DNA of 57,115 bases from an uncultured SAR116 cluster alpha proteobacterium (GTDB lineage Bacteria > Pseudomonadota > Alphaproteobacteria > Puniceispirillales > Marisalimonadaceae): NCBI GenBank assembly GCA_902533695.1, contig CACAMV010000004.1, positions 1 to 57,115 on the forward strand. Reading direction: 5' to 3'. Position 1 is the first letter of the stretch, and the number at the start of each line of letters is the position of its first letter. This document shows, one piece after another, positions 49,701 to 51,482 of the stretch. The notes below the pieces were generated by a model that had not been told where the DNA came from, searched no databases, and was given only the letters and a program-made list of their open reading frames with translations. A program made the translations under genes and the position numbers.

Positions 49701-51482
49701 ATGATTAACCAAAAAAAAATAATTGAATTGTTGAAAATTGCTAAAACTTGTTGTGAATGTGCTATGAAACATTTTAATTCATTTCAAAGATATCAATACA
49801 AAATAAAGAAAGATAATTCACCTTTAACTAAAGCTGATTTAAAAGTTAATGAGATTGCAACATCTGGTATAAGCAAATTATTTCCTAAAGACCAAATTAT
49901 TTCCGAGGAAAATAAAAATAATTTTCTTTCAAGTGGATTAGAAAGATTCTGGTTAATTGATCCAATTGATGGAACAAAAGAATTTATAAACGGTAATGAA
50001 AATTTTACAGTTAATTTTGGTTTAATATGTTTTAATCGGCCAGTATTTGGATTAATTGCTCAACCGCATACCAATTTTGTTTGGTATAACTTTAATCAAA
50101 AATCATGGAAAATTAAAAGTTCATTTAACATTAAAGACTCTGAAGAAGTAAAATGCTCTAAAATAGATTTTTTAAATGCAGACGTAATTGCAAGTAGAAG
50201 TCATAGCAATCAAGATTTAGAAAAAATCATTGCTCTTTTGAAACCAAACAAAACATTGAACATAGGCTCTAGTTTAAAGTTTTGTCTACTTGCAGAAGGC
50301 CATGCTGACATTTATCCAAGAAATGCTCCAACTATGGAATGGGATACTGCTGCAGGACACAGCATATTAAAAAATGCTGGAGGGAATGTTTTATCTGAAA
50401 ACGGATTAGAATTAAATTATAATAAGGTTGATTTTAAAAATAAAAATTTTGTTGCATTTGGGAAAACAAATAAAATTTTACCTAGTTTCTTGTTCTCTAA
50501 AAATATTTTTTCTAATTATAAAAAATATCAAAATCAAATAGATCATGCAGTTAAATCACTAAAAAAAAATAAGTTGATCTGTTTTCCAACAGAAACTGTT
50601 TATGGTTTAGGTGCTATAGGAAATAACAAAATAGCTATTGATTCAATATACCTTGCAAAAAACAGACCTAAAAATAACCCAATAATTGCTCATGTAAAGA
50701 ATATAAGAGATGCAAAAAAATTGGTTAAATTTACAAAATTAGCTAAAAATTTATCAAAAATATTTTGGCCAGGACCACTTACTATGGTCCTAACAGTAAA
50801 TGAAAAATGTAAATTTTCTAAAACCATTTCTCAAGGAAGTAATACTTTAGCTATAAGAATTCCATCTCATCCAGTTGCACTAGATTTATTAAAAAAACTA
50901 AACAAACCAATTTTGGCTCCTAGCGCTAATAAATCTGGGCATATAAGTCCAACCAGTGCAGAGCATGTGATAAAAGATTTTGGTTCTAATTTAAAAAATA
51001 AAGATTGGGAAATTGCTGCTATTCTTGATTTTGGAAGCACTGAGATTGGTTTGGAATCAACAGTAGTTGATTGCAGAAATAAACATCCTATTATTCTCAG
51101 AGAGGGTTATGTTACTGAAGAAATGATAGAATTTTTCTTAAAATTAAAGACCAAGAAAATTACTAATGTAAGAAACCTTTTGTCACCAGGCATGATGTAC
51201 TCTCATTATGCCCCTAAAACAAAACTATTAATAAATCAAAAAAAATATATTCAAGGTTCAGGTGTACTTACTTTCGGTAAAGAAAAAGTTTTTTTTAAAA
51301 ATGTAAAAGAGAAATTTAATCTTAGTGAAACTAAAAACTTATTACAAGCATCTGAACTTCTTTATGAAGGATTAAGATATCTTGATAAATTTAATTTAAA
51401 ATTTATTCAAGTAGTTCCAATTCCAAACGAAGGGATCGGAAAAGCAATTAATGATAGATTAGAGAGAGCAGCTTATGAATAA
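49701..51482 (+). CDS. Fusion of CysQ-like bisphosphate nucleotidase and Sua5-type threonylcarbamoyl-AMP synthase
   Basis: One uninterrupted 593-residue frame. Residues about 1-255 match the inositol-monophosphatase superfamily CysQ: SEENK, the metal site LIDPIDGTKEFINGN near 86-100, and MEWDTAAGHSILKNAGG near 212. CysQ hydrolyses 3'-phosphoadenosine 5'-phosphate. After a linker, residues about 275-593 match Sua5/TsaC: FPTETVYGLGA near 295, KNRPKNNPIIAH, PLTMVLT, LAPSANKSGHISPTSA near 406 and GLESTVVDC near 449, then a C-terminal Sua5 domain with SPGMMYSHYAPKT. This half makes the t6A precursor of tRNA. It overlaps the next gene by 8 bases. I know of no common fusion of this pair. Confidence 0.9.
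   Translation: MINQKKIIELLKIAKTCCECAMKHFNSFQRYQYKIKKDNSPLTKADLKVNEIATSGISKLFPKDQIISEENKNNFLSSGLERFWLIDPIDGTKEFINGNENFTVNFGLICFNRPVFGLIAQPHTNFVWYNFNQKSWKIKSSFNIKDSEEVKCSKIDFLNADVIASRSHSNQDLEKIIALLKPNKTLNIGSSLKFCLLAEGHADIYPRNAPTMEWDTAAGHSILKNAGGNVLSENGLELNYNKVDFKNKNFVAFGKTNKILPSFLFSKNIFSNYKKYQNQIDHAVKSLKKNKLICFPTETVYGLGAIGNNKIAIDSIYLAKNRPKNNPIIAHVKNIRDAKKLVKFTKLAKNLSKIFWPGPLTMVLTVNEKCKFSKTISQGSNTLAIRIPSHPVALDLLKKLNKPILAPSANKSGHISPTSAEHVIKDFGSNLKNKDWEIAAILDFGSTEIGLESTVVDCRNKHPIILREGYVTEEMIEFFLKLKTKKITNVRNLLSPGMMYSHYAPKTKLLINQKKYIQGSGVLTFGKEKVFFKNVKEKFNLSETKNLLQASELLYEGLRYLDKFNLKFIQVVPIPNEGIGKAINDRLERAAYE

Follow-up and report, generated by a model that had tools for sequence, protein, structure and literature searches.

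A CysQ-type phosphatase and a two-domain Sua5 joined in one reading frame in a SAR116 (Puniceispirillales) family: a probable bifunctional enzyme from merged operon neighbours

A single gene at positions 49701–51482 (+ strand) of the window, by which we mean the whole stretch of 57,115 nucleotides analysed here, encodes a CysQ-like phosphatase continuous with a complete Sua5-type tRNA-modification enzyme. The CysQ-Sua5 join is real, old and conserved, and it represents a lineage-specific new architecture built from known enzymes. Taking all the evidence together, we regard it as quite probable that the product is a bifunctional housekeeping enzyme, derived from an in-frame merger of operon genes, whose two sites work independently and whose phosphatase substrate, 3',5'-ADP (PAP), comes mainly from the activation of acyl carrier protein (ACP).

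The gene is one uninterrupted open reading frame of 593 codons with an ATG start, and reading of this frame revealed no stop or frameshift at 50460–50520 or anywhere else within it. Three Pfam domains cover the predicted 593-residue protein, which bears out the sequence-only reading of a CysQ-type phosphatase and a full two-domain Sua5 in one frame. All features of the fused gene given below lie on the + strand. The N-terminal domain (residues 10–242; 49728–50426) has the inositol-monophosphatase (IMPase) fold and matches PF00459 (Inositol_P; E 2.9e-43, 148.7 bits against a cut-off of 27). It carries the two-metal motifs of the IMPase superfamily, EE, DPxDGT and WDxAAG. Across alignment A1, which comprises 18 diverse members of the fused family, E69 is invariant and E70 nearly so (49905–49910), D87, D90 and T92 are invariant within DPIDGTKEF (49959–49985), and W214-D215 of WDxAAG are likewise invariant (50340–50345).

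The remainder of the protein is accounted for by Sua5. The TsaC/YrdC-like domain (residues 286–469; 50556–51107, the coordinates being those of the family match in the genome) matches PF01300 (Sua5_yciO_yrdC; E 2.6e-51, 174.1 bits against 25.1), and the SUA5 C-terminal domain (residues 471–591; 51111–51473) matches PF03481 (Sua5_C; E 1.6e-19, 71.3 bits against 22.9). The KxR/SxN tetrad of Sua5-type synthases, as defined in PMC10321239, is represented by K320 and R322 (50658–50666) and by S408 and N410 (50922–50930), all invariant in A1, and the interdomain linker SPGMMYSHYAP (51183–51215) contains the invariant pair H502-Y503, the counterpart of the residues altered in the H234A/Y235A mutant of P. 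abyssi Sua5 (PDB 6f89). The YrdC-like domain, the SUA5 domain and the tetrad that mark a two-domain Sua5 are thus all present, and the Sua5 half also passes the threonylcarbamoyl-AMP synthase equivalog TIGR00057 (179.5 bits against 123.2). In a search of solved structures it matched the Sua5 proteins of P. abyssi, S. tokodaii and T. maritima. Since every sequence feature of Sua5 is present and, to our knowledge, t6A synthesis is universal, the C-terminal half very probably makes threonylcarbamoyl-AMP (TC-AMP), and would do so from threonine, bicarbonate and ATP for the t6A37 modification of tRNA.

The substrate of the N-terminal half is a little less certain, because the CysQ equivalog TIGR01331 is missed by 7 bits (221.8 against a cut-off of 228.8, over model positions 5–248 of 250). 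The resemblance to CysQ is clear, yet the score falls just below the formal cut-off, and the label ‘CysQ’ drawn from motifs alone was slightly generous, although CysQ is indeed the best equivalog. Together with the use of the IMPase fold for many substrates, this shortfall is what might suggest a different substrate, such as inositol phosphate, NADP or histidinol phosphate. We consider such a substrate unlikely: CysQ outscores the other equivalogs by far (114.4 bits for HisN and 30.2 for inositol-1-monophosphatase), the best IMPase-fold match in the PDB, by sequence and by fold, is Bacteroides thetaiotaomicron CysQ (3b8b), and both DPIDGTKEF and WDxAAG are kept. The N-terminal half is therefore described here as most likely a PAP phosphatase, predicted to hydrolyse PAP to AMP.

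The same fusion recurs throughout one family of the SAR116/Puniceispirillales clade (f1; 58 genomes, mean completeness 73%), as a search of the window's own genome and 100 relatives showed; the family's assignment to Puniceispirillales follows the named records that carry the fusion, which are SAR116. As a full or contig-cut single frame with the catalytic motifs kept, it was found in 41 family genomes from four genera, so that the possibility of its being absent from close relatives, raised from the sequence alone, does not hold. Of these 41 genes, 33 were read in one alignment and the other 8, which have F in place of Y in FPTETVYG, alongside it. The orthologues share 51–66% identity in the same frame without stops, and A1 shows little or no variation in the phosphatase metal-site motifs, the KxR/SxN tetrad and the HY linker. 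The active-site motifs originally named for the two halves are all present, and relatives conserve them apart from conservative changes. Both halves are kept by purifying selection: over 184 pairs, dN/dS has a median of 0.18 in the CysQ half and 0.15 in the Sua5 half.

This recurrence leaves an assembly or sequencing error that joined two genes with a negligible chance of being the explanation, even though the window's genome is a draft (60% complete, 71 contigs) and one relative, G009, has the fused gene split over two contigs. The intact frame appears in independent genomes of four genera, single-cell genomes among them, and we have rejected an assembly artefact because these genomes agree. 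Chance is excluded as the origin of the continuous frame. A species-wide contig scan, which found nothing with a single-sequence query and was run with the alignment as query, returned SAR116 single-cell and metagenome-assembled genomes as carriers; among the matches listed are the single-cell genome SCGC AAA015-N04, as well as AG-337-N21 and AG-325-F22.

The split gene in G009, a genome nominally 100% complete, was also considered as a natural fission. Its halves lie on separate contigs (L185, G009:C29:1-11300, and L186, G009:C53:1-1860), and both break at almost the same position in the gene. From reading of translations, hemA, prmC and a ParA-type gene adjoin the half on one contig and cysS the half on the other. 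Natural fission was rejected, each half being joined to foreign-looking sequence; as the abutting pieces are unlike the family's genes and no family genes follow on either contig, these contigs are probably chimeric.

Within the family, the fused protein is the sole Sua5, and it stands in for the two separate genes. A Sua5/YrdC domain was detected in 43 of the 58 genomes (74%), matching the mean completeness of 73%, and none of the 58 has a second Sua5 copy above the cut-off. A separate tsaC/Sua5 gene elsewhere in the window's genome, which the sequence-only reading had suggested looking for, was not found either. The junction between the halves (residues 256–276; 50466–50528) is short and, in the alignment, is the least conserved part of the gene, with a mean column identity of 0.63 against 0.78 and 0.80 outside it. 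Were translation to begin internally, the mRNA would yield two proteins and the fusion would be only formal, and TTG and GTG codons are indeed scattered near the junction in some members. However, 39 of the 41 fused genes have no in-frame ATG within 50 codons before the Sua5 motif, so that production of Sua5 on its own by internal initiation is unlikely; no alternative start is conserved, and several genes have no start codon of any kind in that interval. On this evidence a two-protein outcome is very improbable.

A structure model of the fused protein (mean pLDDT 81.7, pTM 0.70) shows two mostly confident domains and is weaker around residues 231–270 (block means 57–76). In a fold search the two domains matched Sua5 and CysQ separately, and the model shows no site shared between them. 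Within the proposed bifunctional enzyme, the two active sites most likely act independently, with joint expression and dosage as their sole connection.

The genes around the fusion indicate how it may have formed. The gene for an AlkA-type HhH-GPD DNA glycosylase (PF00730; 49082–49696, +) ends 4 nt upstream, an FAD-linked oxidase gene (PF01565/PF02913; 51475–52935, +) shares its first 8 nt with the end of the fusion, and lptD (PF04453; 52932–55061, +) overlaps the oxidase gene by 4 nt and closes the co-directional cluster. A second family of the same order, f2, has separate open reading frames for cysQ and then sua5, directly adjacent and each with its own stop and start, in the same neighbourhood as the fusion: cytochrome b561 (reverse), alkA, cysQ, sua5 and FAD oxidase. 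The upstream alkA is conserved in f1 and f2, the downstream FAD oxidase in both of these and in several other families. One f2 genome, G061, at first appeared to hold a long fused frame, which resolved into two open reading frames. In another, G058 (L033:969-1880), an SRAP/HMCES-like gene (starting MCGRFA) lies on the opposite strand between alkA and cysQ; in the fused family and in G064 there is no room for such a gene between alkA and CysQ.

Because f2 keeps both genes separate in this shared neighbourhood, gene order and the Sua5 tree together argue for an origin of the fusion in place, out of operon neighbours. In that tree the Sua5 halves fall among the Sua5 proteins of the order (support 99/96), as vertical descent would predict. 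In the tree of CysQ domains, f1 joins the adjacent-type CysQ of f2 with support 87, and a grouping of f1 with the lone CysQs was not rejected (p-AU 0.62), so that the fused CysQ may descend from either lineage. At least two CysQ-like genes occur in the f2 genomes G058, G061 and G073 (L033, L167–L170), one beside sua5 and the others elsewhere; the lone CysQs of G061 and G073 group with those of families f3 and f4. The event that we envisage is that in the ancestor of one SAR116 (Puniceispirillales) family an adjacent, co-directional cysQ and sua5 were joined in frame, through loss of the cysQ stop and with a short junction.

Outside f1 the fusion was found in none of approximately 700 sampled proteobacterial genomes; other families of the order and samples across the class and the phylum lacked it, and the species-wide scan showed, among the matches listed, only separate genes outside the family, often adjacent. 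The initial statement that the pair has no common fusion is thus upheld as far as fusions go, but as separate neighbours cysQ and sua5 recur, in that order, across Alphaproteobacteria. Among 48 other genomes with both genes, drawn evenly from the class, 8 have the two directly adjacent and 6 more have them within 4 kb, always with cysQ first and on the same strand. Ten further alphaproteobacterial genomes have the pair adjacent in a single frame broken by one or two stops, and in records from Rhodospirillales, Kiloniella and Acetobacteraceae the genes are adjacent, mostly in different frames. Such recurrent pairing explains the fusion without special coupling between the two reactions.

Coupling nevertheless deserves consideration, since a pair fused throughout one family and recurrent in fixed order across Alphaproteobacteria is the usual genomic hint of a functional link. 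The phosphatase domain might regulate or support t6A synthesis within the same protein, for instance by removing PAP that would otherwise inhibit the making of TC-AMP, or as a sensor of PAP or of lithium/sodium stress that tunes translation. TC-AMP synthesis releases PPi, and the next step, t6A transfer, releases AMP; PAP is not among these by-products. Furthermore, most of the sampled alphaproteobacterial genomes keep cysQ and sua5 apart, the genes that accompany the pair, alkA and those for FAD oxidase and LptD, share no evident pathway, and the junction is poorly conserved relative to the rest. We therefore judge coupling to be improbable. A more specific proposal is that PAP, accumulating under the salt, lithium or other stress that inhibits CysQ-type enzymes, is sensed or cleared beside the t6A synthase, making translation fidelity responsive to nucleotide stress, with the alphaproteobacterial pairing reflecting the same link; this we hold to be decidedly improbable. 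Read most simply, two operon neighbours merged and the product was kept because each half is useful and the merger itself harmless; it does not look like a new pathway.

The sequence-only reading had also proposed that the link couples t6A synthesis to sulfur-nucleotide recycling, and here the genomic evidence runs against it. A PF01507 search detected no CysH (PAPS reductase) in the 58 family genomes. The strong PF01507 matches in 17 of the 58 occur in the same 17 genomes as a CysNC-type APS kinase match, each close by, and are read as CysD, which is what those whose sequences we read appear to encode; CysD/CysNC is thus confined to these 17. In line with this, SAR116 isolates are reported to have an incomplete assimilatory sulfate reduction pathway (PMC3368413). 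A different supply of PAP is suggested by AcpS, which was found in 38 of the 58 genomes, near the completeness level. In activating acyl carrier protein this enzyme produces 3',5'-ADP, and transfer of 4'-phosphopantetheine to that carrier, not sulfate reduction, would be the usual PAP source in these cells. PAP is described as a by-product of both sulfate assimilation and coenzyme A metabolism (PMC8268124). With no CysH detected, AcpS near completeness and PAP linked to coenzyme A, a general role in scavenging PAP suits the phosphatase better than a part in sulfate reduction, and ACP activation is the likelier source of its substrate.

In the genomes with CysD/CysNC, the phosphatase may also serve sulfotransferases. 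In G011, a family genome with no fused gene in its assembly, a cysD-cysNC-cysQ cluster with its own lone CysQ (L157:176-3700, G011:C2) is followed by a CapD/FlaA1-like polysaccharide gene, which suggests that PAPS is made there for sulfation rather than for sulfate reduction. In G006 (L182:313-2322, G006:C3), a sulfotransferase-like gene, with PF00685 just over the cut-off, lies directly upstream of cysD.

Among the papers searched, none mentioned CysQ together with Sua5, or a bisphosphate nucleotidase together with threonylcarbamoyl. An architecture present throughout one marine bacterial group, whose unfused counterpart a related family still shows, offers a clean case of operon neighbours turned into one protein and lends itself to testing whether PAP clearance and t6A synthesis are related. 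It also carries a practical warning, as annotation by the single best hit would name only one of the two enzymes.

Compared with known systems, the N-terminal half resembles CysQ (TIGR01331; 3b8b) in its whole-domain match, metal-site motifs and fold, and differs from it in scoring just under the equivalog cut-off and in continuing at its C-terminus into Sua5. The C-terminal half shares both domains, the KxR/SxN tetrad and the HY linker with Sua5/TsaC2 (TIGR00057; P. abyssi 6f87, T. maritima 9d3h), to which the fusion adds a 270-residue N-terminal phosphatase. HypF, TobZ and the long chain 8ide (named N(6)-L-threonylcarbamoyladenine synthase) likewise combine a YrdC/TsaC domain with a second enzyme domain (PMC10321239, PMC9654439). 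That second domain is of Kae1 type in HypF and TobZ and consumes the adenylate which the YrdC domain makes, whereas in CysQ-Sua5 it is a phosphatase of unrelated kind, and no intermediate common to the two halves is known. A further parallel is provided by the separate, neighbouring cysQ and sua5 of, for example, Kiloniella, Acetobacteraceae and the Puniceispirillales family f2, which are the same genes in the same order, and in f2 in the same neighbourhood, but which a stop codon, a change of frame or both divide into two proteins.
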